In this document: piece by piece, positions 34,757-61,747 of the stretch
How the letters are laid out: the number at the start of each line of letters is the position of its first letter
Numbering within the stretch: the stretch's first letter is position 1
Source: Spongiibacter nanhainus
Lineage (GTDB): Bacteria; Pseudomonadota; Gammaproteobacteria; Pseudomonadales; Spongiibacteraceae
DNA: 64,000 nt
Assembly (NCBI RefSeq): GCF_016132545.1
Contig: NZ_CP066167.1
Coordinates: forward strand, 248,001 to 312,000
Reading direction: 5' to 3'
Notes under the pieces: model-generated
Database searches by the model: none
Seen by the model: the letters and a program-made list of their open reading frames with translations, nothing else
What the model was told of the DNA's origin: nothing
Program-made: the position numbers and the translations under genes

Positions 34757-34773
34757 CGGTAGCAGGAATCGAG

Positions 34774-35610
34774 CTAGTCAAACTCCACTACTGCATACTC
34801 TGGGTTTCGCTCCTCTATAACGGCGTCACACATATTGCGAAGATACTTGGAGAAGGGGTGGGTAAATATCCAAAACTTACCTCGTTTAACTGCATCAAAC
34901 ACTCTGTTGGCGCACTCCTCTGGGGTGATGCAGTTTGGGTAGGTCTCATCTACCGCCGCTTTCATTTCGGCAATAAGTTCGGGGGAGGCGTCATCGCCCA
35001 GAGACTCCCTGATCCACGGTTCACTGATGTTGCTGGATACCATGCCGGGGCACAATAAAGACACGCTTATGGGCAGCTCTGCCATGATCAGGTCTTGTGC
35101 CAGGCACTCTGTGATACCCTTAACCGCCATTTTAGAGGTAGTGTATTGCGCCATTCCGGGGGCGGCGACCAGTGAGCCCACCGAGCCGGTGTTGACGACA
35201 TGGGCGGGGGTGCCCTGCTCGATCATGCGGGGAACAAACGCACTTATACCGTTGATTACGCCAATGATATTCACCTCAAACACTTCGCGCCACTGATCGA
35301 TACTGAGGTCCCAGCTGCTGCCCATGCGCAGGATGCCGGCGTTATTAAAAAGCAGATCTACGCTTCCAAACCGTGCATAGCATTGTTGGGCAAATTCCTT
35401 CATCGCCTCGGTGTCGGAGACATTCAGTTTGCAAGCGAAAACTTCGGCGCCTTTGGCGCGAAGCTCTGCCTCCACTTCCTTCAGTGATTCGCTATTCATG
35501 TCGGCGATGCAGAGGTTCATCTTCTCGTCGGCTGCCTTATTGGCCAAGCCGCGGCCGATTCCGCTAGCTGCGCCGGTGATGACCGCTGTGCCACCCGCTA
35601 AATTTTTCAC
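34774..35610 (-). CDS. short-chain dehydrogenase/reductase, copy A
   Basis: A 278-residue SDR: VITGAASGIGRGLANKAAD, NNAGILRMGSSWDLS, catalytic YTTSKMAVKG with Ser of VNTGSVGSL, and a C-terminal FWIFTHPFSKYLRN tail. The same length and tail occur in the copy at 45708-46544. Substrate unknown; the GxxNPEYxxVxFD ending is shared. It lies between the 99-residue protein (48 bp upstream) and LysR copy A. Confidence 0.9.
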   Translation of the reverse strand: MKNLAGGTAVITGAASGIGRGLANKAADEKMNLCIADMNSESLKEVEAELRAKGAEVFACKLNVSDTEAMKEFAQQCYARFGSVDLLFNNAGILRMGSSWDLSIDQWREVFEVNIIGVINGISAFVPRMIEQGTPAHVVNTGSVGSLVAAPGMAQYTTSKMAVKGITECLAQDLIMAELPISVSLLCPGMVSSNISEPWIRESLGDDASPELIAEMKAAVDETYPNCITPEECANRVFDAVKRGKFWIFTHPFSKYLRNMCDAVIEERNPEYAVVEFD

Positions 35611-35958: not shown

Positions 35959-36303
35959 GTTTCTCTTCCTTTGTTATGTCGTTATCGCCCCTTGATCGGG
36001 GTGCTGGTGTTAATTAGTGAGATTTCATCATAATCCATCTTTGTTGCTTGTTGGTGTGGCCAATTGGAAACAGTCTATTTCTTATGGCGAGTAAAACTTT
36101 GGCATAGGTCCGGGTATGGCTGACTCTCAGAGTTTTGCCTCTGAATAATTTGGATTGGTCGTTGGGTGCTGATTTGCTGTTAATTGGAGACAATGACGTT
36201 ACGAATTGTGTGTTGTCGCCTATGGACCTTGCTGTGTAAGGTGTTGAAAAAATGAGAATGACCAACTTGCCTAATGGGCGAGTGCCAGCGGATAGATATA
36301 AAA
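35959..36303. other. intergenic region between divergent genes
   Basis: 345 bp between the 99-residue gene (minus) and the Old Yellow Enzyme gene (plus), expected to hold both promoters. It contains the short inverted repeat ACAAT / ATTGT near 36191-36210. No strong hexamers or longer palindromes were seen. Confidence 0.4.
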
Positions 36304-44308: not shown

Positions 44309-45079
44309 CTAATCTCTGGCGGGTGAGCCCATGACGCCAGGCCAGCGACTGCCACCGATGGTATCGACGAAGGGCCAGAAGGCTTTGGGATCCAATGGGC
44401 CTGCCATGGAGATCTCGCGGCTCTTGTATTCCGGCCACCACAGGTGCGCTGAGAGTTGCTCTTTCATGGGTAAGAGGCTGGCGATGGGGTCCCATGGGCT
44501 TTCTTTTAAATTCAGCTTACCGTCCACTGCAAGGCGGTAGCCGGGACCGTACTGGCTGTGAATCTTTACTACGTGAGGGGGGAAGTCGTAGCCCTCCTCG
44601 CCGCCCACTTTGCGGGAGAATTTAGTCCACCATTCATAGCGCTCTGGACCGGTCTCGAGAGGGTCCTCACCGGTGACCTTGCCGCTAAATTCCAAGAAGG
44701 TGTAGCCCTGGTGGTGGCAGCGTGCTTTTACGGTCTCGCCGAGGCGGAAGTATTCGATGTCACAGAGAAACTTGGGTTGGCCATTCATTGCGACGCTGAT
44801 CAGTACCACCCCCTCCTGGTCGATACCGTAGGCCAATGCATACTCACCGGCTTGACCCTCGTATTTGGCGTCCACCGTCATAATGACGCCGTACTCGGGC
44901 TGGTCTAGTACCGGCAAATTGTAAACCGTAACGTTAACGTTGGGTTCGTCGCCCGGCTCGATACCTGGCGGGAGCAATGCGGCAATAGACTCAGGGGTAG
45001 TGCGATAGACAATTTTGAGCATCGGCCACTGGGAAATTTCACCCGGGCTGATCATGGGAGGGTGTATTGAATCTGACAT
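44309..45079 (-). CDS. acetoacetate decarboxylase-like protein
   Basis: A 256-residue protein of the acetoacetate decarboxylase superfamily: LLPPGIEPGDEPNVNVTVYNLPV, MNGQPKFLCDIEYFRLGETVKA and GPGYRLAVDGKLNLKES. The expected Schiff-base lysine is K103 in GQPKF; classical decarboxylases have PKK there, and here the second Lys is Phe, which suggests a different activity such as hydrolysis, aldol chemistry or lyase action. It is the first gene of a minus-strand unit (ADC-like, SDR, TonB receptor) divergent from SDR copy B. Confidence 0.78.
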   Translation of the reverse strand: MSDSIHPPMISPGEISQWPMLKIVYRTTPESIAALLPPGIEPGDEPNVNVTVYNLPVLDQPEYGVIMTVDAKYEGQAGEYALAYGIDQEGVVLISVAMNGQPKFLCDIEYFRLGETVKARCHHQGYTFLEFSGKVTGEDPLETGPERYEWWTKFSRKVGGEEGYDFPPHVVKIHSQYGPGYRLAVDGKLNLKESPWDPIASLLPMKEQLSAHLWWPEYKSREISMAGPLDPKAFWPFVDTIGGSRWPGVMGSPARD

Positions 45080-45707: not shown

Positions 45708-46544
45708 GTGAATAAGTTTAAAGGCTTAACTGCCGTTGTTACTGGGGCGGCTAGCGGTATTGGTCGAGCCATTGCCACTAAAGCGGCTGGGGAGGGGATG
45801 AACCTGGGACTGGTGGATATGGATCTACCGGCACTTGAGTCCTTTGCCGGGGAGCTGGAGCAGCAGGGTGTGAGCGTGTTTTTCCAGCGCGTGGATGTGA
45901 CTGATGCCCAGGCTATGCAGGGCTTCGCGAACAGCTGTTTTGAGCGCTTTAACACGGTTGGCCTGCTTTTCAACAATGCCGGTATCCTGCGAGTGGGCGG
46001 TGCCTGGGAGCAAAGTGCCGAAGATTGGCAAACGATGTTGTCGGTCAATGTGATGGGGGTGGTCAATGGGGTTAATGCCTTTCTGCCCCGCATCCTCGAG
46101 GCGGGGAACAATGCCCACATTGTGAATACCGGTTCGGTGGGCTCGCTGGTGGCAGCGCCCAATATGGGGCAGTACACCACCTGCAAAATGGCCGTGCGTG
46201 GGCTGACGGAGTGCTTGTATCTGGAGCTAAAAATGCAGCGTATGCCGGTGAATGTCTCGCTACTGTGTCCCGGTCCGGTATCGACCAATATTGCCAATGC
46301 CCTGATCGGTAGTTTTCTGGGAGATGATCCGGATCCTGAGAGGCTCGCTGAAGTGAAGGCGGCCACCGAGGCGGCAGATCCCAATTTTATTTCTCCACAG
46401 GCCTGCGCAGACACGGTATTTGATGCCATCAGGGAGGAGAAATTCTGGATCTTCACTCACCCTCTTAGTGGTCACCTCCACAAGTTGATGCAGGCTATCG
46501 TGAATGGCGAGAATCCAGAGTACTCGGAAGTAAAGTTTGATTAA
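45708..46544 (+). CDS. short-chain dehydrogenase/reductase, copy B
   Basis: A 278-residue SDR, equal in length to copy A (34774-35610) and homologous end to end: VVTGAASGIGRAIATKAAG, NNAGILRVGGAWEQS, YTTCKMAVRGL and the same FWIFTHPLSGHLHK tail. The catalytic Tyr and Lys are present. It is followed after 25 bp by LysR copy B, so the same SDR-LysR pair occurs twice in the island. Substrate unknown. Confidence 0.9.
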   Translation: MNKFKGLTAVVTGAASGIGRAIATKAAGEGMNLGLVDMDLPALESFAGELEQQGVSVFFQRVDVTDAQAMQGFANSCFERFNTVGLLFNNAGILRVGGAWEQSAEDWQTMLSVNVMGVVNGVNAFLPRILEAGNNAHIVNTGSVGSLVAAPNMGQYTTCKMAVRGLTECLYLELKMQRMPVNVSLLCPGPVSTNIANALIGSFLGDDPDPERLAEVKAATEAADPNFISPQACADTVFDAIREEKFWIFTHPLSGHLHKLMQAIVNGENPEYSEVKFD

Positions 46545-46569: not shown

Positions 46570-47529
46570 GTGCCATTGAATAAGAACATCGTATCGCCAG
46601 TCGGTCGCTGGGACGGCATCGACGAATTTGTGCATTCAGTCTCTACCGGCAGTTTTACGGCTGCCGCGGAGGAGCTGGGTGTGTCCAAGTCTTATGTCAG
46701 CAAGCAGGTGAGTAAGCTCGAGGACAGATTGAATGCCCGCTTGCTGCAGCGCTCAACCCGGCAGCTCACCCTTACTGATGTGGGGGAGGTGTTTTATCGC
46801 GAGTGCACACTTATCTCGAAGCAGTACGAAGATTTGGAGTCAGTTGTTGCCGACATGCAGAACAGCCCCAAGGGGACCCTAAAGGTGGCGATCAACAGCC
46901 GCTTTGGGGTGCACTATATGGCATCTGCGATAGCGTCTTTTGCGCGCATGCACCCGGATATTTCCATTCAAGTCCACTCCAGTTTTCGCGATGTCGATCT
47001 GATTGCTGAGGGTTACGACATAACCATACGCTACGGGGACCTTGCCGACTCGTCCCTGGTGGCCCGCAAGCTGGGTGGCTACACCATGAGTTTGTACGCT
47101 GCGCCCTCCTACTGGGAGGCGTGCGGTATGCCGGAGACCATGGATGACCTCAAGGACCATAATGGTCTCTCCGCGCCTGAACGCATTTGGTATTTTGATA
47201 CGCCTACGGGCAAGCACCGCTTCCGGGTTGATGGCAGTTGGATCAGCGAAGATGGCCTGGCCCTGATGGCCGCTGCCAAGGAAGGGATAGGCATTGCTCA
47301 GTTGCCCGATTTTTTTGCGGCCAGTGCGGTAGAGTCCGGTGAGTTGGTTAGGTTGCCGCGGCAATGGAATTTTTACTGGCGGGCCTCTTGGGCGGTGTAT
47401 GCAGGCAATCAACACCTCTCTGCGAAAGTCCGCTTTTTTATCGACTTTTTGTGCCAGTCCATGGCGGGCAACACTTGGCTCAAGTATCGGGATGTGTTTT
47501 ACAGCGCCCGTGGTGATGATGGGTCGTGA
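46570..47529 (+). CDS. LysR-family transcriptional regulator, copy B
   Basis: A 319-residue LysR protein starting with GTG 46570. The winged helix (DEFVHSVSTGSFTAAAEELGVSKSYVSKQVSKLEDRL) and effector domain match copy A closely, including VAINSRFGVHYMASAIA and LVARKLGGYTM. It is translationally close to SDR copy B. It may regulate the divergent ADC-like unit, the SDR gene itself and the catabolic operon that starts 416 bp downstream on the same strand. Confidence 0.9.
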   Translation: MPLNKNIVSPVGRWDGIDEFVHSVSTGSFTAAAEELGVSKSYVSKQVSKLEDRLNARLLQRSTRQLTLTDVGEVFYRECTLISKQYEDLESVVADMQNSPKGTLKVAINSRFGVHYMASAIASFARMHPDISIQVHSSFRDVDLIAEGYDITIRYGDLADSSLVARKLGGYTMSLYAAPSYWEACGMPETMDDLKDHNGLSAPERIWYFDTPTGKHRFRVDGSWISEDGLALMAAAKEGIGIAQLPDFFAASAVESGELVRLPRQWNFYWRASWAVYAGNQHLSAKVRFFIDFLCQSMAGNTWLKYRDVFYSARGDDGS

Positions 47530-47945: not shown

Positions 47946-49121
47946 ATGGATCGTTTTCTCATTGTATCTACAGATGGTCATGCAGGGCTGCCAATGGAGC
48001 GGTATCGGGACTATCTGGATTCCAAATACCATGCCGCCTTTGATGAGGCGCTGCCGATTCAGCGGGAGATGACACGGCAGGCGGAAGAGTTCTTACTGCT
48101 TTCCGATTTTAACGACAAGTGGCGCGAGGACGCGGGTGATGGTCTGGCTGGCGCTTGGGATGGCTCCGTGCGCAATCGGGTGATCGACGCCGATGGGGTC
48201 GCTGCCGAAGTGCTCTTCCCCGATGGCATCACCGAAATGAATGCGCCGCCTTTCGGCGCCGGTTTGGCATTGAAGCCCTGGGGTATCGACCCCGAACTGC
48301 AGTGGGCCGGTGCTCGCGCTCACAACCGGTGGATTGCCGAGTTCTGTAAAGAGGATCCTGTGCGCCGGATTGGTCTGGCAATTGTGCTGATGCTCTACGA
48401 TGTGGATGAGGCGCTGCGTGAAGTGAAATGGGCTCACGAGAACGGCCTCAAAGGCATTTTGATTCCGCCTTTGATGGGTGACAAAGACGCCTACAACCAT
48501 CCCAAGTACTACCCGATCTGGGAATACTGCGCGGAGAATGGTCTGGTTGTACATACTCACTCGGGTCCCTCGCCTGACTACGACTACACCCTGCCTGGTG
48601 CCATTGGGGTGTTTGTGACCGAGTTTGCTTGGTGGGCTGCTCGGCCGCTGTGGTTTCTGATCTTTGGTGGTGTGTTCGAGAAGTTTCCTAAGCTGAAGTT
48701 TGCCCTGACCGAAGTCAGCGAGTTCTGGATTCCCCATATGCTGGAGCTGATGGACGTGCGTGCCTCGGTTAAGCACACCTCCGGGAAGTTGGGTGACTTC
48801 CGTAGCCATTTGACCATGAAGCCCAGCGAGTACTTCCGTCGCAATGTATGGGTGGGAGCATCGGCGCTGTTCGATGAAGGTTCCACTGCCGTGCGCCACG
48901 AAATCGGTATCGAAAACGTGATGTGGGGGACCGACTACCCGCATCCCGAGGGCAGTTGGCCGCATACCAAAGAGAAGATGGAAGCCTATTTGAAGGGTGT
49001 GCCAGAGAATGAACTGGAGCTCATGCTCTCGGGTAACGCGGTGAATTGTTACGACCTCGACGTCGATAAGCTCAACGTCATCGCTGAGCGTATTGGCCCA
49101 GTCAGATCGGCGTTCGCATAA
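47946..49121 (+). CDS. amidohydrolase_2-family protein (metal-dependent hydrolase or decarboxylase)
   Basis: A 391-residue TIM-barrel protein of the ACMSD/LigW/LigY group. The N-terminal DGH near residue 10 supplies metal ligands, VVHTHSG the next His, and WGTDYPHPEGSWP the aspartate near the C-terminus. Relatives hydrolyse C-C bonds or decarboxylate aromatic acids. It is the first gene of the operon with a Rieske oxygenase and extradiol genes, so a role in processing an aromatic acid or a ring-cleavage product is likely; which one is open. Confidence 0.85.
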   Translation: MDRFLIVSTDGHAGLPMERYRDYLDSKYHAAFDEALPIQREMTRQAEEFLLLSDFNDKWREDAGDGLAGAWDGSVRNRVIDADGVAAEVLFPDGITEMNAPPFGAGLALKPWGIDPELQWAGARAHNRWIAEFCKEDPVRRIGLAIVLMLYDVDEALREVKWAHENGLKGILIPPLMGDKDAYNHPKYYPIWEYCAENGLVVHTHSGPSPDYDYTLPGAIGVFVTEFAWWAARPLWFLIFGGVFEKFPKLKFALTEVSEFWIPHMLELMDVRASVKHTSGKLGDFRSHLTMKPSEYFRRNVWVGASALFDEGSTAVRHEIGIENVMWGTDYPHPEGSWPHTKEKMEAYLKGVPENELELMLSGNAVNCYDLDVDKLNVIAERIGPVRSAFA

Positions 49122-49150
49122 CTCGGCTTACATGAAAAGAGGGGGGATGA

Positions 49151-50125
49151 ATGGTGGCGGAACGTTTTCCTATGCCGATGCCTTTCGGCTGGTTCTGTAT
49201 CGGATTCAGCGATGAGCTTGAAAATAACGAAGTGAAAAACCTGCACTACTTCGAGAGGGAGATGGTGCTGTTTAGGACGGCGTCGGGGAAGGTGGGGTTG
49301 ACCAGCCCGGTTTGTCCCCACCTGGGGGCCCATCTGGGCCACGGTGGCACCGTACAGGGAGAGTCATTGCGCTGCCCCTTTCACCACTGGCAGTACGATA
49401 AAGAAGGGATTATCACAGCTATTCCCTATGCCAAGCGTATTCCCCCCAAGTGGGAGGGAAAGCCCTGTCTGAAAACCTACCCGGTGTGTGAAAAGAACAA
49501 TGTGATCTGGGCATGGTATCACCCAGAGGAAAAGGCGCCTGATTACGATGTGCTCGATCTGCCAGAGTCCCGGGATCCGGAGTGGGAGCACAGTCGCCGA
49601 TACCAGTGGACCTTTGCCTCCTGTCCCCAGGAAATTGCTGAAAATGGAGTCGATGTCGCCCACTTTCAGTTTGTTCACAACATGGAAGCAGTGCCCCTGG
49701 GTAAGACCGAGTACGAAGGCCATATTCGTCGCAGTCATGTGTCGGGGCCCAAAACGGTCCCCAATGAAAAGGGCGAGATGGAGGAAGTCGAGGTCAGCGT
49801 CAGTGTTGTGCAAAACGGCGCTGGACAAAAATGGACCCGATTCAGTGGCCTGGGTGACTACCTAGTGCAGGTGCTTGTTACCCCTATTACCCGAGAGCAA
49901 GTGGATGTTCGATTTGCTTACAGCCATCCCAAGTATGAGAAGGGCAGCTATCTGGATGCCGTCATGGAGTTTGCTATTGCATCCACCAATGGTCAGCAAG
50001 GGGTGGAGGGAGATATCCCAATTTGGGATAAGAAATTCCATCTGGAAAACCCTGTCCTGTGTGATGGCGACGGGCCGATTATGCAGTTCAGAAAGTACTT
50101 CTCCCAATTCTACAACTTCGCTTAG
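49151..50125 (+). CDS. Rieske non-heme iron oxygenase (KshA-like)
   Basis: A 324-residue oxygenase with the Rieske [2Fe-2S] ligands C55, H57, C75, H78 (CPHLG and CPFHHW) and the mononuclear iron motif ENGVDVAHFQFVH, with His171 and His176. The single-component-type length and motifs resemble 3-ketosteroid 9-alpha-hydroxylase (KshA), Neverland-type and O-demethylating oxygenases. A reductase partner is needed and none is encoded nearby. A GGGGGGA run precedes ATG 49151. Substrate: polycyclic ketone or aryl ether, not decided. Confidence 0.88.
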   Translation: MVAERFPMPMPFGWFCIGFSDELENNEVKNLHYFEREMVLFRTASGKVGLTSPVCPHLGAHLGHGGTVQGESLRCPFHHWQYDKEGIITAIPYAKRIPPKWEGKPCLKTYPVCEKNNVIWAWYHPEEKAPDYDVLDLPESRDPEWEHSRRYQWTFASCPQEIAENGVDVAHFQFVHNMEAVPLGKTEYEGHIRRSHVSGPKTVPNEKGEMEEVEVSVSVVQNGAGQKWTRFSGLGDYLVQVLVTPITREQVDVRFAYSHPKYEKGSYLDAVMEFAIASTNGQQGVEGDIPIWDKKFHLENPVLCDGDGPIMQFRKYFSQFYNFA

Positions 50126-50171
50126 ACGCTGATTGGCCACATTAACCAACGATAACAAGGTGGAATGATAA

Positions 50172-51371
50172 ATGAATAATCACCAGGAAATTGATCTACG
50201 GGGCCTGAATTCAGCGCGCGCCCAGGAACTTATAGAAAGAGCGAAAGCCCTAGGCCCGGTTTTGAAAGAGCGGTCGGCCGATGCGGCAGCGCAAAGCAAG
50301 ATACCCGAGGAAACCATTGCTGATTTTCAGGACGCGGGATTTTTTAAGATTCTGCAGTCGGAAAAATACGGTGGCTACGAGATGGATCCACAGGTTTACT
50401 ACCGTGTTGTTCTGGAGGTGGCGAAGTCATGTATGTCCTCAGCTTGGGTGTTGAGTGTTATTGGCGTACATAACTGGCAGCTTAACCTTATGGATGCCGA
50501 GGCCGCCGAGGAAGTATGGAAGAATGATCCGACAGTGCTGATTTCTTCATCCTATGCGCCGGTCGGCTTGGTGGAGGCTGTCGAGGGTGGCTACAAGTTG
50601 AGCGGTCGCTGGAGTTTCTCCAGTGGTTGTGAACACTGCAAGTGGGTCTTTCTTGGTGGCGTCGTGCCGGTGGAAGGAGAGCCCTGGGATATTAAGAACT
50701 ACCGCACTTTCCTAGTACCGATAGAAGATTACACGATCGAGAAAAACTGGGATGTTGTTGGGCTAAAGGCTACTGGAAGTCACGACATTGAGCTTACCGA
50801 TGTGTTTGTACCGGACTACAGAACTCATCGCATGTTGGAAGATGCGCTAACTGACAAGCACAAAGATAAGCGTCCCCTTTACCAGCTGCCCTTTATGCAG
50901 GTGTTTTCCCGGGCGGTGTGTACAGCGACGCTGGGTACTTTGGAGTCGGCGTTGGAGGACTATATCCAAGTGGCGCAATTCCGCATTGCCGGCGGCAAGC
51001 TAATGCGAGACCACGACGACTCTAAGCGCATAGCGGCACAGGTCAAGGCTGCCGTGGAATCTATGAAACTAATCATGATGGATAGCTTTGACGCCATGAT
51101 GCGCAGCGCAGAAACCGGTGTTGAGCTGGGCATGGTTGAGCGGGCACGCTTCCGCTACGAGAGCTCCCTGGTTGCCGATCGGTGTATTGCCCTATCTTCC
51201 AAAATGCTTAAGGCAGCAGGTTCGGGCGCCATTCGAAACGGCAGCCCTTTGCTGAAAAAGCATTTGGATATGCTGGCAAGCCAGGCCCACATTGCCAATA
51301 TTTCCGAGTCCTTTGAGATCAATCTGGGCGGAGTCCTGTTTGGTCACGAGCCCACGGAGCTGGGGCTGTAG
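50172..51371 (+). CDS. acyl-CoA dehydrogenase-fold flavin monooxygenase (HsaA-like)
   Basis: A 399-residue protein of the group D flavin monooxygenases. GFFKILQSEKYGGYEMDP and SSGCEHCKWVFLGGV are typical of HsaA-like enzymes, which hydroxylate a phenol to a catechol using FMNH2 from a separate reductase (HsaB-like). The protein is longer than and distinct from acyl-CoA dehydrogenases. It lies between the Rieske and meta-cleavage hydrolase genes and probably produces the catechol cut by the extradiol enzyme. Reductase not seen here. Confidence 0.83.
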   Translation: MNNHQEIDLRGLNSARAQELIERAKALGPVLKERSADAAAQSKIPEETIADFQDAGFFKILQSEKYGGYEMDPQVYYRVVLEVAKSCMSSAWVLSVIGVHNWQLNLMDAEAAEEVWKNDPTVLISSSYAPVGLVEAVEGGYKLSGRWSFSSGCEHCKWVFLGGVVPVEGEPWDIKNYRTFLVPIEDYTIEKNWDVVGLKATGSHDIELTDVFVPDYRTHRMLEDALTDKHKDKRPLYQLPFMQVFSRAVCTATLGTLESALEDYIQVAQFRIAGGKLMRDHDDSKRIAAQVKAAVESMKLIMMDSFDAMMRSAETGVELGMVERARFRYESSLVADRCIALSSKMLKAAGSGAIRNGSPLLKKHLDMLASQAHIANISESFEINLGGVLFGHEPTELGL

Positions 51372-51450
51372 GCTTCCGACTTGTTGCGTCGCCGGGCTTT
51401 TGGCTGACGCGCTGCAGGCTAATAACGAATAACAGATTGAGGTAAGTTCC

Positions 51451-52296
51451 ATGACGATGAACGGCGCGCTGCCAGACGAAAACTATGCACATTGCCCTAA
51501 CGGCTATCGGATTCACTACATCGACAAGGGTGATGGCCCTGTGGTGGTGTTTCTTCACGGCTCCGGTCCTGGGGCAAGCGGTTACAGTAACTTTAAGGAC
51601 AACTATCCGGTATTTGTCGAGAATGGCTATCGCTGTATTGTGCCGGATCTAATTGGCTTTGGTTTTTCCGATAAGCCTGACGATGTTCAGCATCCGCTGT
51701 CTTTCTTCGTTGAATGCGTTAAGCAAACTCTGGACCTTGCAGGGGTCGAGGAGTGTGTGGTTGTTGGCAATTCACTGGGTGGCGCGGTGGCCATTGGCCT
51801 GGCGCTGGAGCACCCCGATTTAGTCAAAAAGCTGATTGTGATGGCCCCGGGTGGTATGAGCCAAACTGAAGAATACTTCGCCATGCCCGGCATGCAGAAG
51901 ATGTTTGAAGTCTACGGCTCTGGCGAGACCATAACACCGGCAATGATGAAAGAGTTTTTCTCCGCAGCGCTGGTGCACGATCCGAAGAGTGTGACTGACG
52001 AGCTGATAGCCGAGCGCGCGCAAATCATGGAGATCATGAATGGCCACGTGATGATCACCATGCAAATCCCGTATCTGGTGGAGCGCCTCCCCGAATTGCA
52101 GTGTCCGGTTCTGGGTTTTTGGGGCACTGATGACCGCATGATGCCGGACAGTGGGATTCTCGGGTTCGCCAAAAATTGCGCCAATCTAAAGCTGTTGTTG
52201 ATTTCTGAATGTGGCCACTGGGTGATGGTGGAGCACCGAGAGTTGTTCAACAAGGAATGTCTGGAATTTATCGCCGATGACAAGGGGGCGAAGTAA
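51451..52296 (+). CDS. alpha/beta hydrolase, meta-cleavage product hydrolase type (HsaD/BphD-like)
   Basis: A 281-residue serine hydrolase that would cleave the C-C bond of a meta ring-fission product. The triad is Ser108 in GNSLGG, Asp228 in WGTDDRMMP and His256 in CGHWVMVEH; the oxyanion region is HGSGPGASGYSNF, as in BphD and HsaD. The gene overlaps the extradiol dioxygenase gene by one base (TAATG), so the two are translationally coupled, as expected for successive steps. Confidence 0.9.
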   Translation: MTMNGALPDENYAHCPNGYRIHYIDKGDGPVVVFLHGSGPGASGYSNFKDNYPVFVENGYRCIVPDLIGFGFSDKPDDVQHPLSFFVECVKQTLDLAGVEECVVVGNSLGGAVAIGLALEHPDLVKKLIVMAPGGMSQTEEYFAMPGMQKMFEVYGSGETITPAMMKEFFSAALVHDPKSVTDELIAERAQIMEIMNGHVMITMQIPYLVERLPELQCPVLGFWGTDDRMMPDSGILGFAKNCANLKLLLISECGHWVMVEHRELFNKECLEFIADDKGAK

Positions 52297-53195
52297 TGAC
52301 TATTCGCAGTATAGGTTACGCTTTTATCGAGTCTACCGACCCGCAAAAGTGGCTGAGTTACGGTACTGAAGTCCTGGGCATGATGAATTCATCCTGGCGT
52401 GAGCATGACGAAAACATCTACTTGAGAATTGACGAGCGGCCGTTCCGGTTTGTGATTACCCCGGGCGAGCGGGATCGGCTGCAATTGATCGGCTTTGAGG
52501 CCTATGACGCCGATGACTTCAATAAGACTGTAGACGCGCTGGGCTCCCAGGGGGTCGAATTTGTTAAAGGCAGCGCCGAGGAGCGGCGCTTGCGCGGCGT
52601 GCGCGACTTGGTACGGTTTGATGATCCTGCCGGCAATACCGTAGAGCTGTATTATGGTGCAGAGCTGGATTACAGCAAGTTCGTCTCTCCTACCGGCGTA
52701 TCGGCCTTTGTCACCGGATTGAACGGCAGTCACGGTTTTGGTCATGCTGTTCTTCCCGCCCCGAACCTTGAAGAGACCCATCAGTTTTATCGGGATGTGC
52801 TAGGTCTTGGCGATACTGACTATATGAACTTTAAGTTCGGAGACGATCCCGAAGATCCCGGCCTGGGTTTGTATTTTATGCATGTAGAAAACCCGCGGCA
52901 TCATTCGCTGGCGCTGTTTGGTGGAGAAAGCCCCTTGGGATGTATTCATCTCATGCTGGAAGTGAGTACCGTGGACGAGGTGGGGGAGTGCCTTGGTCGT
53001 GTGGTCGATAGAGAAATTCCCATTACTTCCACACTTGGTCGCCATACCAATGACCGTATGTTGTCTTTCTACATGATGACGCCTGCGGGTTTCCCGCTGG
53101 AGTATGGCTGCGACGGTATGCAGATGGACTGGGAAAACTATACACCGACTACGACTACGACCCCGAGTCTCTGGGGGCATAAATTCTCTCTCTAG
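52296..53195 (+). CDS. type I extradiol dioxygenase (HsaC/BphC-like)
   Basis: A 299-residue two-domain VOC protein that would open a catechol ring next to the hydroxyls. The iron ligands are His150, His203 (in PRHHSLAL) and Glu269 (in GFPLEYGC). The catalytic LGRHTNDRMLSFY signature with His250 and Tyr259 is complete, so the enzyme should be active. HsaC acts on the steroid-derived 3,4-DHSA; BphC on biphenyl catechols. The position in the operon between hydrolase and SDR supports a complete meta-cleavage module. Confidence 0.92.
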   Translation: MTIRSIGYAFIESTDPQKWLSYGTEVLGMMNSSWREHDENIYLRIDERPFRFVITPGERDRLQLIGFEAYDADDFNKTVDALGSQGVEFVKGSAEERRLRGVRDLVRFDDPAGNTVELYYGAELDYSKFVSPTGVSAFVTGLNGSHGFGHAVLPAPNLEETHQFYRDVLGLGDTDYMNFKFGDDPEDPGLGLYFMHVENPRHHSLALFGGESPLGCIHLMLEVSTVDEVGECLGRVVDREIPITSTLGRHTNDRMLSFYMMTPAGFPLEYGCDGMQMDWENYTPTTTTTPSLWGHKFSL

Positions 53196-53264
53196 CTTGG
53201 TAGAAATGCTACTTGGCGAAGCTAAGATCAGCGGTACGCAACAATAATAGTAAGGATTTGGTGA

Positions 53265-54137
53265 ATGAGTATGGGTAAGCTTTCAGGAAAAACCGCGGTA
53301 GTGACCGGTGGCGCCAGCGGCGTGGGCTTTGCAATTTGTCAGCGTTTTGGTCGCGAAGGTATGAATATCGTCGTGGCTGATATTGAGCAGGCCGCGCTGG
53401 ACCGGGCGGTTGGCCAGCTCGAGAGTGAAGGTGTTCGCGCCAAGGGTGTGGTGACGGATGTGACTGATGAGCAATCGGTTCGGAATTTGTGTGAGCAGGC
53501 GTACGATACCTTTTCCCAGGTAGACATGCTTTTCAACAATGCCGGGGTTGGTGTCAAGGAGGCTGATCGTAAGATATGGGAGCTCACTGCCAATGATTGG
53601 AGCTGGGGTTACTCGGTCAATGTGATGGGCATTGCCAATGGCGTGCGCGCTTTTGTGCCCAAAATGCTGGAGGTGGGTAAACCCTGCCATATCATCAATA
53701 CTACGTCCTTTAATGGTGCATGTATTTCTTTTCCTACAACGCCAATTTATGCGTCATCTAAGGCAGCGGTTACATCTCTAACAGAAGTGCTTTATGCGCA
53801 GTTGGCCAAAGTTGCCCCAGATATCAAGGTGCACTTGTTGTTTCCTGGGCCACATATGGTCAACACCCAGATTCTAGCTTCACAGCGCAATCGTCAGGAG
53901 AAATTCAAAGACGACAACAAAGTCGAGGATTACCTGACCATGGAAGATTTGAAAAAATCGGCGTTGGGTGCCAATGCAGAATTTAAACTAACCGAGCCTG
54001 AAGAGGTTGCCGAGAGTTGCTACGAGGGTGTGATGGCTGGTCAATTCTGGATTCGGCCGTATTTGGAAGAGCATCAGGCAATGATAAGCGGCCGGACGGA
54101 AAGTGTGTTAAAGAATGAAAATCCGGCTGTTATGTAA
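53265..54137 (+). CDS. short-chain dehydrogenase/reductase
   Basis: A 290-residue SDR with VVTGGASGVGFAICQRFGREG, NNAGVGVKEADRK and the active site NTTSFNGA...YASSKAAVTSL. The C-terminal region has FKLTEPEEVAESCYEGVMAGQFWI, distinct from copies A and B. It is the last gene of the ring-cleavage operon, followed by a weak hairpin. It could oxidise a hydroxyl of the substrate before ring attack. Confidence 0.9.
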   Translation: MSMGKLSGKTAVVTGGASGVGFAICQRFGREGMNIVVADIEQAALDRAVGQLESEGVRAKGVVTDVTDEQSVRNLCEQAYDTFSQVDMLFNNAGVGVKEADRKIWELTANDWSWGYSVNVMGIANGVRAFVPKMLEVGKPCHIINTTSFNGACISFPTTPIYASSKAAVTSLTEVLYAQLAKVAPDIKVHLLFPGPHMVNTQILASQRNRQEKFKDDNKVEDYLTMEDLKKSALGANAEFKLTEPEEVAESCYEGVMAGQFWIRPYLEEHQAMISGRTESVLKNENPAVM

Positions 54138-54259: not shown

Positions 54260-56053
54260 ATGAAAGTGGGGAGGGATCGTCATATCCTCAGTGCTCCGGC
54301 TTCGTTCAGCGGCTGGCGGTATATGTTGGGTATGATATTGATGGCCGCTGCTTTCTTTACTCACGCGTCCCAGAATCCTCCTAACGTTCTGGTGATTGTT
54401 GCGGATGACATGGGTTGGTCGGATATCAGTGCCTTTGGTAGCGAGATACGCACACCGACCTTGGACGCCCTCGCTAGCGAGGGCGTAACCATGACCAATT
54501 TTCATGTCTCACCAACCTGCTCCCCAACCCGGGCGATGTTAATGAGCGGTGTTGATAGTCACCTTGCCGGGCTGGGTACCATGGCCGGTGTGCAAGCGCC
54601 AAACCAGTTAAACTCGGAGAATTACGCGGGGCAGCTCAGCGACGATGTTGTTACCTTGGCTGAGGGGCTTAAGGCAGCTGGCTACACGACGCTGATGAGC
54701 GGCAAGTGGCACCTGGCCAAAGAAGCGAACCAGTATCCCAATGTCCGCGGTTTCGATCAGTCGTACTTTTTGTTGGAAGGTGGCGCCAGCCATTACAGTG
54801 ATGGCGCTGCGCTCTATCCCGGTGCCGGACCGAATTATATGGAAAATGGTCAGCCGGCGACCCTGCCGGAGGACTTCTATTCCTCAAAGTACTATACCGA
54901 CAAAATAATTGAGTATATTCGCCAAGTGGACGGCGAGAGGCCGTTCTTCGCTTATCTTGCCTACACTGCTCCCCATGACCCATTACATGTGCCGGAGCCC
55001 TGGCGTGCCAAGTACAGCGGTGTCTACTCGGCCGGTCCGGATTCCATTCGGCGTCAGCGCTTGGCAGAGTTGACCAACCGCGGGTTGATTCCCGACGGCA
55101 TTGAAACTTGGGGTGCACCAAAATTTCCAAAGTTTATACCGGCCCATATTCCGTCTTGGGACAGCCTGACTGATCAGGAGCGAGAGGACGCCGCACGGCC
55201 AATGGAAATCTACGCCGGGATGATCGAATTCATGGACGATCAGATCTCGCGACTCATTGATTTTCTTCGGGAGTCGGGGGAGCTTGAAAATACCTATATC
55301 GTGTTTCTTTCCGACAATGGCCCCAACGCGGCAACACCTTTGTCCTACCCGAATATGAGTAGGGATTACTACCGAAGTAGGTTTATTGAGCCGGGTGCAC
55401 AAGAAGGTGAGCCTGGAAGTCATCCCTACTTGGGGCGAGAGTGGGCTTGGGCATCGGCAACGCCATTCAAGCTATATAAGGGTGCGATCTCAGAGGGCGG
55501 AGTAAGGTCGCCACTGATTGTTGTCGGTCCGAAGGTAGCCAAGGGTCGGCGTTCAGCGCAGCTCGCTCATGTCACGGATTTGCCCGCCACTGTTTACGAA
55601 CTAGCTGGTATCGACCCACAGGGCAGTGAAGTGTTTAGGGGCAAGCATAAACCTTCTGGTGTGTCTCTCATTGAAAACTGGACCGACCCAACGGCAGCAC
55701 ACTCTCGCCAGTTTGCCATCGAGCTTTTTGGGCATCAGGCTGCCATTGCTGGAGATTGGAAGATAACCCGCCTTATGCCACCTGTGGGTAGCGGGAAATG
55801 GGAGCTGTACAACTTGCAGTTAGACCCCGGGGAGATGAACAATCTTGCTGAAGCGCAGCCCGAAAAGTTGGATGAGATGATTGTGCAGTATCAGGATTAC
55901 GAAGAACAGGTGGGTGTTATTCCCCCGAGACCGCCAATAAGCGTCTCTTTGGGAGATCTGTTTACCGGGGAGTGTAGCCCGGTGTGTAAAGCTACTGTGT
56001 CGATAATTGATTTTATTATGGCGATTTGGGTAAAGGCGTCGACCGACTCGTAA
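54260..56053 (+). CDS. sulfatase (arylsulfatase type)
   Basis: A 597-residue type I sulfatase. The active-site motif CSPTRAMLMSG places the formylglycine-forming Cys at residue 87; VADDMGW supplies two calcium ligands, and SGKWHLAK and SDNGPNAATP are further family motifs. A hydrophobic segment at residues 19-36 ending THASQNPPN looks like a signal peptide, so it should act in the periplasm. It would desulfate aryl or steroid sulfates. A formylglycine-generating enzyme is needed from elsewhere. Confidence 0.9.
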   Translation: MKVGRDRHILSAPASFSGWRYMLGMILMAAAFFTHASQNPPNVLVIVADDMGWSDISAFGSEIRTPTLDALASEGVTMTNFHVSPTCSPTRAMLMSGVDSHLAGLGTMAGVQAPNQLNSENYAGQLSDDVVTLAEGLKAAGYTTLMSGKWHLAKEANQYPNVRGFDQSYFLLEGGASHYSDGAALYPGAGPNYMENGQPATLPEDFYSSKYYTDKIIEYIRQVDGERPFFAYLAYTAPHDPLHVPEPWRAKYSGVYSAGPDSIRRQRLAELTNRGLIPDGIETWGAPKFPKFIPAHIPSWDSLTDQEREDAARPMEIYAGMIEFMDDQISRLIDFLRESGELENTYIVFLSDNGPNAATPLSYPNMSRDYYRSRFIEPGAQEGEPGSHPYLGREWAWASATPFKLYKGAISEGGVRSPLIVVGPKVAKGRRSAQLAHVTDLPATVYELAGIDPQGSEVFRGKHKPSGVSLIENWTDPTAAHSRQFAIELFGHQAAIAGDWKITRLMPPVGSGKWELYNLQLDPGEMNNLAEAQPEKLDEMIVQYQDYEEQVGVIPPRPPISVSLGDLFTGECSPVCKATVSIIDFIMAIWVKASTDS

Positions 56054-56989: not shown

Positions 56990-57287
56990 AAATGAAAGGT
57001 ATTTGTTCGCACTCAAAAACAATAAATCTACAATTTTAAGATTATATCCAGATATAGACAGCGTTATAGTGTAAGTCGAGTAGCTGCGCATTGCAGACTG
57101 ATAATTAAGATATGAATCTAAAAACCTCATAAGAAGGCTTTGTAAGCGATCGGCGGTGCGAAGGTCTTTTGGCTTGAGGATTTATGACCGCATGTAGCAA
57201 GCGGAAACTTAAAATCAGGCTCGCCAGAGGCCCTATGGTGAAGTAACTATAAGATCAAAAATTCCTAGAAGCATTGAAGTGAGAGAT

Positions 57288-59771
57288 ATGAAAAAAATAA
57301 CCTTATTAACCAGCATCGTCACCTTTATTGCCTTGCCCAATTTATCGGTAGCCCAAGAAGAGGCTCCGAAGCGTGTTGCACAACTAGAGGAGGTTGTCGT
57401 AACTGCCCGTAAGCGGAGCGAAAGCCAGCAAGATGTTCCAGTGGCGGTTACAGCCATTAGTAGCGAGCAGATGGCGGCGAATAACATTGCCACTATTGCT
57501 GATGTCGCCAAAATTGCCCCCAGCCTTGATCAGCGCGAAGGTAGAAAGCAGGGTGGCTTCTCAATTCGCGGTGTCGGTCAGGTCAGGATAAACGAAGTGC
57601 AGGCCGATCCGGGTGTCGCCGTGTATATGGATGGTATATTCCTGGCACGGAATGATAGTCAGCTATTGGATACAGTAGCCATTGAAAACGTACAGGTGCT
57701 CAGGGGGCCGCAGGGTACGCTGTTTGGTAAAAACAGCGTGGGCGGCGCGATTATCGTCACTACCAAGGACCCGGCCGAGGAAACGATGCTAAGCTTTAGT
57801 AGCAAGCTCGATACACTTGGTCAGCGAAATGCGACGATCTCCCTTGACCTCCCGCTAATTGAGGATCGATTGCTCTCCAAGTTTACCTTTGGCTCAGTAA
57901 AATCCGATGGTTACGCAGAAGACCTGGATACCGGTGCGCACATGGGTGACGATGACCGCCTGATGGCGGCGCTGCAGCTGTACTGGCGTATTAGCGATAA
58001 TATGTCGATGAAGTCATTGGCTTACTTTAATGACCAGGACGAAAACATACCGCCTCACTATTGTCAGCAGATAACCCTCAATGGGGCCCTAAGTTATGCT
58101 CGCGCGCCGGGTCGCCCAGAGGCCTACCACGAAGCCTGTAGCAATGCTGAGCGCTTGATTGGTCAAGAAAAGGTGCAAACGGAGAACTACGGGAACGAGT
58201 TCGTTTCGCAGGACGCGCTCTTCGGAAATACCCTGACCTGGGATTTTGAGTCGGGTACTTTAAAAAGTATTACCTCCTATGTTCTTAAGGGAGATAATTT
58301 CAGCGATTTCGACTTCGATGCCACGGACTTGCTAGCAATTCGGAATACCGCTCACGTTCGCAACCAGCTAAAGGAACAAGGTGTCTATAGCGACGAGGGG
58401 AGTCGCTACACTCTAGGGCAGGAATTGCAGTACTCGGGCTTGGCCTTACAGGATAGATTAACTTATACCGTGGGCTTGTTTGCCTCGTGGGAATCCCTGG
58501 ATCGCCAGTTGGAGGGCCAGTCTTCCACCCGTGAGGGTTGGGTAGGGTTTGAAAGCCTACCGGGTCTGCCCAACATCAATATGCTCTGTGGTTTGTTGCC
58601 GGAAGACTGTCTCTATGTTCGCGGGGTGAACAATACGGCGCTTAGCTCATACGACAATACCTCCTACGCGGCGTTCTCTCAGGTAATTTACGACATTACG
58701 CCAACGCTGCACCTCACTGCCGGTCTTCGTTATTCCTATGAACAGCGGGAGATTCGCGTAGAGCAGTTTGAGGCAGAAGCGGTTCCTCCGGTGGCAGGTA
58801 TCGTGCCACTGCCTCCCGGTACTCCCATCACCGTTATGACAGAGACGATGTTCAATAACCTGGAGGGAATGGATATTCAGCTCTCAAGGGGTGAGATTCA
58901 GCGCAGCGAAATTGACTTCGAACGACTGTCGCCGATGATAAGCTTATCCTGGGATGCGTCGGAGCATTTCCAGTGGAACAATGTTGATGCACTTATGATT
59001 TACGGTAGTGTCAGCGAGGGCTTTAAGTCGGGCGGTTTCAATGTGTTGTCTACTGGCATTGACAGTTTCGATCCAGAATTTGTCGTGAGTTCTGAAATTG
59101 GCTTTAAGCTGGATGCCCTGCAACGGTCAATGCGCTTGAATATGGCTCTGTATAATTCGGACTACAAAGACATCCAAGTTGTTGTTGCCGACATCCCCTC
59201 TCTGGGCGCGCCCGAAATATTTACCAACAACGCCGGTTTGGCCAGGATGCGTGGTGTGGAGGCCGAGTTGATGTGGCTGCTTAGTCACAATTGGGTGATC
59301 AACGCCTCTGGCAATTTCATTGATGCCGAATTCCTGGAGTATGACGATACGGTGAACGACCCGGTTACTGGTACGCCGGGGCCCGTTGATCGCAGCGACG
59401 AACCTTTTCCCTTTATACCTGAATTCGTCTATAACCTTTCCGTCAATTACAGTCGGGAGTTTAGCTTTGGACTGCTTGATTTCGTGTTGAGCCGAAATAC
59501 TCGCTCCGAGCAATTTATCGGTGGCGACGCAATGGCCGGTTTACCTCAATTCAGGGATGATGCAACGATCAAAGGGTTTAGTACCTGGTCGGCGAGAGCG
59601 TCTTGGATTCCGCGAGACAACAGGGACATCCGCGTGTCAATTTATGGTAACAATATTACCAATAAAGAATATGTGGCTACAGGCAGCGCGGTTTACTCTG
59701 GCTTCGGCACCAATTCTATTACGATGGGTAAAGAGGCTCACTTTGGCCTAGACTTTAAATACGGATTTTAA
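57288..59771 (+). CDS. TonB-dependent outer-membrane receptor, 2
   Basis: An 827-residue receptor with a signal peptide (MKKITLLTSIVTFIALPNLSVA), TonB box LEEVVVTARKRSESQQ, plug motif NVQVLRGPQGTLFGKNSVGGAI and a barrel ending in KYGF. ATG 57288 was chosen because the signal peptide follows directly; GTG 57279 adds three residues. It is homologous to the receptor at 40834-43431. Followed by the DUF3604 gene after 65 bp, an arrangement suggesting uptake and processing of one substrate. Confidence 0.93.
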   Translation: MKKITLLTSIVTFIALPNLSVAQEEAPKRVAQLEEVVVTARKRSESQQDVPVAVTAISSEQMAANNIATIADVAKIAPSLDQREGRKQGGFSIRGVGQVRINEVQADPGVAVYMDGIFLARNDSQLLDTVAIENVQVLRGPQGTLFGKNSVGGAIIVTTKDPAEETMLSFSSKLDTLGQRNATISLDLPLIEDRLLSKFTFGSVKSDGYAEDLDTGAHMGDDDRLMAALQLYWRISDNMSMKSLAYFNDQDENIPPHYCQQITLNGALSYARAPGRPEAYHEACSNAERLIGQEKVQTENYGNEFVSQDALFGNTLTWDFESGTLKSITSYVLKGDNFSDFDFDATDLLAIRNTAHVRNQLKEQGVYSDEGSRYTLGQELQYSGLALQDRLTYTVGLFASWESLDRQLEGQSSTREGWVGFESLPGLPNINMLCGLLPEDCLYVRGVNNTALSSYDNTSYAAFSQVIYDITPTLHLTAGLRYSYEQREIRVEQFEAEAVPPVAGIVPLPPGTPITVMTETMFNNLEGMDIQLSRGEIQRSEIDFERLSPMISLSWDASEHFQWNNVDALMIYGSVSEGFKSGGFNVLSTGIDSFDPEFVVSSEIGFKLDALQRSMRLNMALYNSDYKDIQVVVADIPSLGAPEIFTNNAGLARMRGVEAELMWLLSHNWVINASGNFIDAEFLEYDDTVNDPVTGTPGPVDRSDEPFPFIPEFVYNLSVNYSREFSFGLLDFVLSRNTRSEQFIGGDAMAGLPQFRDDATIKGFSTWSARASWIPRDNRDIRVSIYGNNITNKEYVATGSAVYSGFGTNSITMGKEAHFGLDFKYGF

Positions 59772-59836
59772 GCGCGGTTTTGTAGAGCGGGCCAGTGCTA
59801 TCTGGCCTAATACCTATTTGGAAGAGAGGGAACACT

Positions 59837-61747
59837 TTGTTTAGTTGCGCGAGAACTGCTGGGCCGACTACCTGTTTTACTATGGTCCTCCTTATATGTT
59901 GGCTTGTGGGATGTAAGCCAGTAGACGATCCGTCACTATTTCCAGAATACCATAGCAGTAACGCCCGCCCTGAGGCAGATATGCCAATCGTCCCCAGTAA
60001 TCCAGAGCGTAATCTGCTTTGGGGTGATCTTCATATCCATACCAGTTTGTCTACCGATGCCTTTGTTATGGGTGTAAGGGCTATGCCGGATGACGCATAC
60101 CATTTTGCTAAAGGCGGTGAGATAGCTCATGCGGCTAAATATGGTATCCGTATTAGTGAGCCCCTGGACTTCGCTGCGGTAACAGATCATTCCGAGTACC
60201 TCGGGGTGGTCCGTGCCCAGGATCCGGATCTGCCGCTGTCTCGCCGTTCACTGAGAGACAGGCTGCTAAACGATGGGCCGCTTCTGTTTACCTATGCATG
60301 GCTGCGCACCATGCTTGGCTTCGACCCGAAAGTTGGTCAGGTGCCGGGTGGTGAGGAAATGATGGCGGATGCCTGGCGCGAAATTATCGCCAGCGCCGAG
60401 CGAAACTACGACCCCGGCCGTTTTACCACGTTTATCGGCTATGAGTGGTCGTCTATGCCGGATAAAAACAACCTACACCGCAATGTAATATATCGCGGAA
60501 GTGAGGTTCCAGACCAACCATTTAGCTCGACCATGTCTCAGGACCCGGAGGATCTGTGGACGGCGCTGGAGAATCAGCGAGCCAGAGGCATGGCCAATCT
60601 TGCCATTCCCCATAATGGCAACGTCAGCAACGGACTGATGTATGGGGATAAGACCTTTAGCAGTGAAGATATGAATAGCGATTACGCAGAGCGCCGGATG
60701 CGTAATGAGCCGATCAGCGAAATTTTTCAAATCAAGGGAACATCCGAAACTCATCCGGAACTTTCCCCGGATGATGAGTTTGCTGATTTTGAAATCTTCG
60801 ACACACTGATGTCGGGCAAAATCCGTCAGGCGAAAGCGAAGGGCGGGTATAGCAGAGACGCCCTGCGCCTGGGGATCGAAATGGATCATCGGGAGGGGTT
60901 TAACCCGTATCGGTTTGGCGTAATCGGCAGTAGTGATAGCCACAATGCGTCTACTCCGGTTGAAGAGGATAACTTCACCGGCAAACTGCCCTTGCTAGAC
61001 GGAAGTGCGGGTATTCGATTGGGCAAGAGTGTGGTTCTTCCGCTTCAGTATCAGTTATCACGGCGCTGGGGCGCCGCCGGACTTGCCGCAGTATGGGCTA
61101 CCTCTAACACTCGAGAGGCGATCTTCGATGCTATGCGCAGAAAGGAGACCTACGCGACATCGGGGCCGCGAATTTCGGTTCGCTTTTTTGGTGGCTGGAA
61201 CTATCCAGCTGACTTAGTGCAGCATGAGCAGCGTATACCCCTTGCCGAGGAAAACGGTGTGCCGATGGGCGGAGACTTACCGCCTTTACAGGGCGATGCA
61301 CCAAGCTTTGCCGTATGGGCAAGTAAGGATCCCCGCAGTGGTAATCTTGATCGTATTCAGATTATTAAAGGCTGGGTAGATGACGAAGGGCGTTCACAGG
61401 AGCGCATCTACAATGTGGCGCTGTCGGACGGCCGTATAGCGGATGAGACTACGGGCCAAGTGCCGCCTGTCGGCAACACGGTGGATGTGGAAAACGCCAC
61501 CTATACCAACGATATTGGGGATGGGCAACTGTGGGCGGTTTGGCAGGACCCCGACTTTGAGCCTGAACAAAGTGCATTTTACTATGCCCGCGTTCTTGAG
61601 ATACCCACCCCTCGCTGGTCAACTTACGATGCTGTCAAGCTGGGTGAAGAGCCTATAGAGCCGACGTCCATTCAGGAGCGAGCGGTGACTTCTGCTATCT
61701 GGTACCGGCCGCCATCAACGACCATAACTCAAGCGCCCATGCTTTAA
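59837..61747 (+). CDS. DUF3604 lipoprotein (PHP-fold, putative metal-dependent hydrolase)
   Basis: A large protein with GDLHIHTSLSTDAF, FAAVTDHSEYLG, AIPHNGNVSNG and SSDSHNAST, the metal-binding histidines and aspartates of PHP-type phosphoesterases, and the rest typical of DUF3604. The N-terminal hydrophobic stretch ends WLVGC, a lipobox. I chose TTG 59837, which has AGAGGGA upstream; ATG 59882 lacks a ribosome site but would also keep a signal peptide. The function is unknown; DUF3604 genes often adjoin TonB receptors in marine and sphingomonad genomes. Confidence 0.82.
   Translation: MFSCARTAGPTTCFTMVLLICWLVGCKPVDDPSLFPEYHSSNARPEADMPIVPSNPERNLLWGDLHIHTSLSTDAFVMGVRAMPDDAYHFAKGGEIAHAAKYGIRISEPLDFAAVTDHSEYLGVVRAQDPDLPLSRRSLRDRLLNDGPLLFTYAWLRTMLGFDPKVGQVPGGEEMMADAWREIIASAERNYDPGRFTTFIGYEWSSMPDKNNLHRNVIYRGSEVPDQPFSSTMSQDPEDLWTALENQRARGMANLAIPHNGNVSNGLMYGDKTFSSEDMNSDYAERRMRNEPISEIFQIKGTSETHPELSPDDEFADFEIFDTLMSGKIRQAKAKGGYSRDALRLGIEMDHREGFNPYRFGVIGSSDSHNASTPVEEDNFTGKLPLLDGSAGIRLGKSVVLPLQYQLSRRWGAAGLAAVWATSNTREAIFDAMRRKETYATSGPRISVRFFGGWNYPADLVQHEQRIPLAEENGVPMGGDLPPLQGDAPSFAVWASKDPRSGNLDRIQIIKGWVDDEGRSQERIYNVALSDGRIADETTGQVPPVGNTVDVENATYTNDIGDGQLWAVWQDPDFEPEQSAFYYARVLEIPTPRWSTYDAVKLGEEPIEPTSIQERAVTSAIWYRPPSTTITQAPML

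Follow-up and report, generated by a model that had tools for sequence, protein, structure and literature searches.

What does a bacterium do with a complete set of ring-cleavage genes that carries its own Rieske oxygenase and a supposed amidohydrolase? The question is raised by an operon of Spongiibacter nanhainus, found at 47946-54137 of a 64,000-nucleotide stretch (NZ_CP066167.1, positions 248,001 to 312,000; the window hereafter) that forms part of a single 4.08 Mb contig. The operon consists of six intact and closely spaced open reading frames (ORFs) on the + strand, and both coordinates and Pfam families agree with the initial annotation (Amidohydro_2; Rieske and KshA_C; acyl-CoA-dehydrogenase-like flavin monooxygenase; alpha/beta hydrolase; BphC_D1 and Glyoxalase; short-chain dehydrogenase/reductase, SDR). 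The Ser108-Asp228-His256 triad of the hydrolase and its one-base overlap with the dioxygenase gene (stop and start share TAATG) are likewise confirmed.

47946..49121, +, 'amidohydrolase' of PF04909, candidate amidohydrolase-related dinuclear oxygenase (ARO), with Asp10, His12, His205, Glu256, Asp330, His333 and Glu335
49151..50125, +, KshA-related Rieske oxygenase (not KshA) by Rieske and KshA_C domains, motif conservation and tree, with Cys55-His57, Cys75-His78, Asp168, His171, His176 and Asp307
50172..51371, +, HsaA-type flavin monooxygenase, oxygenase component (NCBIfam HsaA, 328 bits; solved 3-HSA hydroxylase 2rfq; tree)
51451..52296, +, HsaD-type meta-cleavage-product hydrolase, with Ser108, Asp228 and His256
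52296..53195, +, type I extradiol dioxygenase of HsaC type (2zi8 best among solved structures, 239 bits; tree)
53265..54137, +, SDR oxidoreductase, PRK06194-like, a frequent partner of the amidohydrolase-Rieske pair

It is reasonably probable that the locus is dedicated to the catabolism of a steroid-like polycycle and consists of two modules. The first would comprise the amidohydrolase-fold protein, the Rieske oxygenase, the SDR and an acetoacetate-decarboxylase-like (ADC-like) protein encoded upstream, and the second HsaA, HsaC and HsaD. This reading draws on the gene content, the intact metal and catalytic residues, an ARO-like predicted fold with its ligands, separate paralogous clades and the recurrent pairing of the first two genes. 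Both modules would act in one pathway, in the order of steps set out below.

The Rieske oxygenase and its recurrent partner

The pairing of the amidohydrolase and Rieske genes was followed through 79 named loci, which were found with the amidohydrolase alignment and are the best of 533 relatives, a sample that favours close homologues and whose members are not independent. Among the hosts are Zhongshania, Halieaceae, sphingomonads, Myxococcota and one Gemmatimonadota bin; Zhongshania aquimaris CAU 1632 (L144) shares the gene order of the window. With gene profiles built from hits in these same loci, a KshA_C-type Rieske gene lies on the same strand and within 5 kb of the amidohydrolase in 67 of the 79, an ADC-like gene in 54 and an SDR gene in 45. 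Flanks of 5 kb or more on both sides are available for 57 loci; the Rieske gene is found in 49 of these, and Rieske, ADC-like and SDR genes together, on either strand, in 32. Given four such Rieske genes in 4 Mb, the adjacency expected by chance is estimated at about 1%. Three sphingomonad loci inspected gene by gene (L081, L090 and L097) hold, in this order, TonB receptor, MFS, amidohydrolase, LysR, Rieske, ADC-like, SDR and second MFS genes, the MFS genes having been Pfam-scanned in L097 only. Two Sphingomonas-type genomes (L084 and L085) carry the amidohydrolase module twice, the copies being about 9 kb from each other. The amidohydrolase is present in only one of six other genomes of the genus searched, and it has no match on plasmids in PLSDB at 1e-60.

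The window Rieske protein contains the Rieske motif and the 2-His-1-carboxylate triad. Comparison with Rieske proteins longer than 250 aa encoded within 4.5 kb of an amidohydrolase (89 rows, 83 distinct, the window's included) shows that all 89 keep the ligands of the Rieske cluster, both catalytic His and Asp168, while 88 keep Asp307 and one has Glu there. A dead Rieske oxygenase acting as electron donor only was rejected on the two His and Asp168 kept throughout and on Asp307. Judged from these ligands together with the ARO ligand set described below, both pair partners look like working oxygenases.

The Rieske protein shares with KshA its Rieske and KshA_C domains as well as the Rieske and facial-triad ligands, and its best solved matches are KshAs (123 bits). 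It could on this account be another 9-alpha-hydroxylase isoenzyme (KshA2) in a plain 9,10-seco duplicate for a slightly different 3-ketosteroid, with the amidohydrolase peripheral, as the adjoining HsaA, HsaC and HsaD would allow; three of five KshA homologues of Sphingobium Chol11 are reported to have yielded the expected 9,10-seco-steroid on heterologous expression (PMC8540908). The tree argues otherwise: the seven HsaC-adjacent KshAs group in a clade by themselves (100/100), and the window protein falls outside it, in a clade of 30 that is amidohydrolase-only (100/99). This tree has 96 rows, thinned from 113, and many of the rows labelled 'none' come from loci with flanks of about 1.5 kb and may have an amidohydrolase farther off. 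The catalytic helix of the window protein, EIAENGVDVAHFQFVH, also differs from that of the HsaC-adjacent copies, where E[LI][VI]DNMAD.AHF[GA]P[VI]H fits 9 of 9, and the protein has 324 aa as opposed to 386 to 394 aa in solved KshAs. Furthermore, the pair occurs without nearby Hsa genes in most loci. By its sequence the window protein is KshA-related and not KshA itself, and the isoenzyme explanation is rather unlikely.

On the same tree, the label 'near an amidohydrolase' has to change four times, and well-supported branches force two or more of these changes; three Myxococcota Rieske rows near an amidohydrolase fall on the KshA side. The pairing therefore spans more than one Rieske lineage, via repeated recruitment or loss. 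The genome has two more KshA_C-type Rieske genes (G000:C1:108362-109324 and 1271936-1272895), which show 46% and 42% identity to that of the window, and no amidohydrolase match was found in the 20 kb around them.

Ring-A enzymes and the link to steroids

The initial annotation had compared the meta-cleavage genes with HsaA, HsaC and HsaD, joined by an unusual extra 'amidohydrolase', and this comparison stands. The best NCBIfam models are HsaA at 328 bits (next model 176), HsaD at 160.5 (BphD 158.6) and HsaC at 291 (BphC 278). All three scores lie under the NCBIfam cut-offs of 450, 400 and 450 (HsaC being NF045631), but because the KshA-adjacent set of the same genome misses them too, with 372, 175 and 296 bits, the shortfall is uninformative. 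The argument that the dioxygenase is not HsaC since it misses its cut-off was rejected on the score of that KshA-adjacent copy.

The hydrolase keeps its full catalytic triad, and the dioxygenase has the type I extradiol fold. Of the metal ligands first proposed for the latter (His150, His203 and Glu269), the outer two are present and retained, and His218, in the motif CIHLML, fits better in the place of the middle one. By the BphC pattern (His146, His210, Glu260), which we take to correspond to His150, His218 and Glu269 of HsaC, His203 is more likely a second-sphere His than a metal ligand.

Seen within the whole genome, this is no orphan aromatic operon: another, steroid-type set (KshA, HsaC, HsaA, HsaD, hydratase, acetaldehyde dehydrogenase and KstD homologues) is found elsewhere. 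At about 2.34 Mb, a KshA-like gene (KshA_C 239 bits, versus 108 for the window Rieske gene) adjoins HsaC and HsaA genes whose products are 62% and 39% identical to the window's, and 6 to 8 kb from there lie genes for acetaldehyde dehydrogenase, 2-oxopent-4-enoate hydratase and an HsaD (49% identical). The five long PF00890 proteins scanned, all outside the window, have 3-ketosteroid delta-1-dehydrogenase as their best NCBIfam model (325 to 648 bits, cut-off 789). Thus, the earlier statement that kstD and the reductases are absent is true of the window, which has no PF00890 match and no ferredoxin-reductase among 32 scanned proteins, but not of the genome, given its KstD-like genes. Two HsaB-like flavin reductases elsewhere in the genome score under the cut-off, one with an in-frame TAG, and the same model finds matches in 9 of 14 control genomes.

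In the HsaC tree (hits of at least 250 aa; rows with stops and identical rows dropped, 43 to 39), the window copy groups with those of one same-genus genome, two Zhongshania and two Halioglobus (99/99), and all six are near an amidohydrolase-Rieske pair. It further lies inside a 33-row group (100/100, with forks open near the base) that includes KshA-adjacent HsaCs; the other HsaC of the genome groups with same-genus copies, at least two of them KshA-adjacent. The HsaA tree (hits of at least 210 aa kept, 48 to 44) places the window copy in a 12-row clade (100/100), every row of which lies within about 10 kb of the pair. Its sister rows are the HsaAs of seven relatives, and the six regions fetched for these hold HsaD in 6 of 6, HsaF in 5 and HsaE and HsaG in 3. 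HsaD gives the same pattern (11 rows, 95/95). Some of these trees have long branches and unsure deeper forks, and the steroid role of the relatives' clusters is itself deduced from their families. One locus (G174, L056:11046-12280) has its HsaA split over two overlapping frames and a second HsaA in the same genome, and HsaA-like genes of two same-genus genomes (L253; G148:C3:151112-152308) contain two in-frame TAG codons each.

The window HsaA, HsaD and HsaC are a second, paralogous set, and because of where the three fall in their trees, ring A of a 9,10-seco-steroid-like compound is their most likely substrate class. As in the 9,10-seco pathway (HsaA, HsaC, HsaD, or TesA2, TesB, TesD), all three enzymes are present with their residues intact, inside or beside its proteobacterial lineages; unlike in that pathway, they form a second paralogous copy without an HsaE, HsaF or HsaG match in the window. 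The extradiol enzyme falls in a known family with an assigned substrate class, whereas the Rieske protein, outside the KshA clade, does not.

Steroid and biaryl substrates had at first been held equally open. The steroid part of that view survives, while parity for biaryls fits the placement of HsaC, HsaA and HsaD less well. A biaryl, a lignin dimer or a diterpenoid with an aromatic ring might still be argued for from the close BphC and BphD scores (278 vs 291 and 158.6 vs 160.5 bits) and from PtmU3, an ARO which works in diterpenoid biosynthesis (PMC7782822). However, the HsaA model stands far above the next one, HsaC groups with KshA-adjacent copies, HsaA and HsaD lie beside the HsaA-HsaD clusters of relatives, and the amidohydrolase co-occurs with HsaC genomes, so a non-steroid substrate is unlikely. 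Its lignin-dimer variant (LigX/LigZ) was rejected, as HsaC and BphC gave the best matches and nothing of LigZ type turned up among the families.

The co-occurrence was counted in 194 genomes of the order, 20 of which have the amidohydrolase (1e-60; at least 63% identical in five, 48 to 54% in the others) and 57 an HsaC-like gene at 1e-40, a limit that lets in other extradiol enzymes too. An HsaC-like gene is found in 19 of the 20 genomes with the amidohydrolase versus 38 of the 174 without it (Fisher p 1e-10, kinship ignored). In a second set, of 49 amidohydrolase genomes, 19 of the 22 reached through loci L066 to L098 (57 to 85% identity) have an HsaC match, three of these being Myxococcota at only 37 to 39% HsaC identity.

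The amidohydrolase-fold protein

The PF04909 family holds more than 100,000 proteins, mostly uncharacterised (PMC10811679). The window member has the fold and all six AibH2-type metal ligands (DxH, H, E, DxxH): Asp10, His12, His205, Glu256, Asp330 and His333. Among 129 copies found, 122 longer than 300 aa were kept and joined with the window's (123 rows, 117 distinct), and in 113 to 117 of the 117 distinct aligned rows the ARO ligand positions are kept. An acidic residue two past the last His, Glu335, is present in 116 of 117 and aligns with the HxE of PtmU3; such a residue is reported in dinuclear members only (PMC7782822). The protein's closest sequence match is an oxygenase, and PtmU3 is the best VIA-align match of its predicted structure, although identity to the PtmU3, SfbO and AibH1H2 entries in structural alignments is about 21 to 24%. 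Because it has the full reported dinuclear ligand set and PtmU3 as its best VIA-align match, this protein is probably a dinuclear monooxygenase rather than a hydrolase, and the 'amidohydrolase' label is most likely wrong. An oxygenase role in the cell would follow from its likeness to the AROs PtmU3, AibH2 and SfbO, with which it shares the fold, the metal residues and the nearest sequence and VIA structure matches.

A genuine hydrolase or decarboxylase, for instance one that cuts the amide conjugate off a bile-acid-like substrate and leaves the Rieske protein as sole oxygenase of the first module, would be in keeping with the characterised PF04909 enzymes, which are more often single-zinc and non-redox (PMC10401708). 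Precedents are a bile salt amidase of Sphingobium Chol11, Nov2c227 (PMC8399759), and an induced 'amidohydrolase' of Caenibius tardaugens proposed for deconjugation (PMC12882949). The full dinuclear ligand set with its extra acidic residue, an oxygenase as both best sequence and best VIA match, and the paired Rieske gene make such an activity distinctly improbable.

Like the window gene, AibH2-like genes are paired with the gene for a Rieske [2Fe-2S] protein, with 90% co-occurrence according to PMC10401708. Their partner is small, whereas here a full Rieske oxygenase that keeps both of its iron sites takes that place, and a later ARO survey covered Rieske proteins of less than 250 aa (PMC10811679). 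AibH2 presumably receives its electrons from AibG, a small ferredoxin. By analogy, the pair might form one two-oxygenase machine, in which the Rieske protein, besides oxygenating the substrate itself, relays electrons to the dinuclear centre of the amidohydrolase-fold protein, but we regard this as quite unlikely. A literature search without most subscription papers found no published amidohydrolase-KshA pairing, and overlap with the Sphingobium Chol11 work is possible; it gave no paper on DitZ, which appears only in a PDB title (Rhodococcus rhodochrous). What appears new is thus a recurrent partnership of known enzyme families for which no published description has so far been found.

Proposed pathway and neighbouring genes

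The operon has the following neighbours, some of which enter the proposed pathway:

44309..45079, -, ADC-like protein (PF06314) with candidate Schiff-base Lys103, divergent from the operon and 2.9 kb upstream
45708..46544, +, SDR that accompanies the locus in several relatives
46570..47529, +, LysR regulator, whose homologues adjoin the module in relatives, including sphingomonads
54260..56053, +, sulfatase (PF00884), CSPTR motif at residue 87, with homologues in several relatives' loci
57279..59771, +, TonB-type outer-membrane receptor, possibly for substrate uptake (from its translation; 74% in the same-genus locus)
59795..61747, +, DUF3604 protein (PF12228, 728.7 bits), with homologues in several relatives' loci

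The same-strand run continues past the operon with the sulfatase, an acyltransferase, the TonB-type receptor, the DUF3604 protein and an enoyl-CoA-hydratase-like ORF; this ORF and the receptor owe their names to their translations, without a family scan. In the proposed route, the receptor would take up the substrate and the sulfatase might strip a sulfate ester. Going by their families and pairing, the amidohydrolase-fold monooxygenase, with an Fe2 or Mn/Fe centre, and the KshA-related Rieske oxygenase would then oxygenate the polycycle; the SDR would oxidise the product, and the ADC-like protein would decarboxylate it or cleave it by a retro-aldol reaction through its Schiff base. After ring-A aromatisation, HsaA would hydroxylate, HsaC meta-cleave and HsaD hydrolyse the 9,10-seco intermediate in parallel to the other set, in the order known for these enzymes (PMC8399759 and PMC8540908).

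Either a beta-keto-acid decarboxylation or a retro-aldol step is plausible because the Schiff-base Lys of the ADC-like protein is kept in 43 of 43 aligned rows; that it decarboxylates a beta-keto acid made by the two oxygenases is a tentative proposal, possible but doubtful. Its active site comes in two subtypes, GEPKK-like in 23 of the 43 rows and GQPK[FY]-like in 20, the latter without a Lys beside the Schiff-base Lys. In sterol demethylation, a methyl group is oxidised to a carboxyl, a beta-keto acid is formed and decarboxylation follows. Module 1 as a demethylation route at C-4 or elsewhere, in which the Rieske protein and the ARO turn methyl to carboxyl, the SDR yields the beta-keto acid and the ADC-like protein decarboxylates it, could call on the conserved Lys, the SDR partner and a weak match to SdmA (4beta-methylsterol monooxygenase), but is very improbable, with SdmA at 49.6 bits far under its 600-bit cut-off and below solved KshA, and with a same-strand ADC-like gene present within 5 kb at no more than 54 of the 79 loci.

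Several observations weigh against a single two-module unit for steroids. No ferredoxin-reductase family, small Rieske ferredoxin or other electron donor was found among the 32 window proteins scanned, and in the plain Foldseek ranking of the amidohydrolase-fold protein decarboxylases appear from row 11 on. A Rieske oxygenase within 5 kb is absent from 12 of the 79 loci, and the KshA-adjacent HsaA of the genome lies far from the window HsaA in the tree. Only 9, 8 and 4 of the 79 loci have a close HsaA (61-74%), HsaD or HsaC gene, respectively, on either strand at a distance of up to about 10 kb, so module 1 does not need module 2. The strand-limited profile counts of 8, 5 and 4 differ because three of the eight HsaAs are relatives at 25-29% and four loci with a close HsaA on the other strand are missed. 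Finally, an HsaC match at 1e-40 was found in 27 of the 49 amidohydrolase genomes (from 50 of the 79 loci) and not in the other 22, and for the more distant loci L099 to L143 the figure is only 8 of 27. Distant amidohydrolase homologues may act on other substrates, and since the HsaC link weakens outside the order, the steroid claim is limited to the window's close relatives.

Further features of the window concern its composition and a second gene pair. G+C content is 0.55-0.63 at 1-32 kb and 0.49-0.56 at 32-64 kb, as if the catabolic stretch had been acquired. A LysR and SDR pair at 33803-35610 resembles the LysR at 46570 (57% identity) and the SDR at 45708 (53%), with an old-yellow-enzyme-type reductase nearby at 36274, and this region is perhaps a sister steroid locus. 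A scan for promoters and terminators gave 16 and 17 sites, with no excess over shuffles.

The locus hints at an uncharacterised breakdown route for steroid-like molecules. The presence of ring-A enzymes of its own beside the pair, in the window's group, points to a narrow substrate class, and the second set suggests a steroid-like substrate which the other set of the genome does not serve. The pairing recurs across phyla, and surveys limited to small Rieske proteins would miss it. If the two-oxygenase machine were real, two coupled C-H oxidations of steroid-like molecules would be the work of a widespread family, present in Pseudomonadota, Myxococcota and a single Gemmatimonadota bin. Ultimately, the operon marks a testable branch of PF04909 in which the label 'amidohydrolase' is probably wrong and the enzyme would be an oxygenase.

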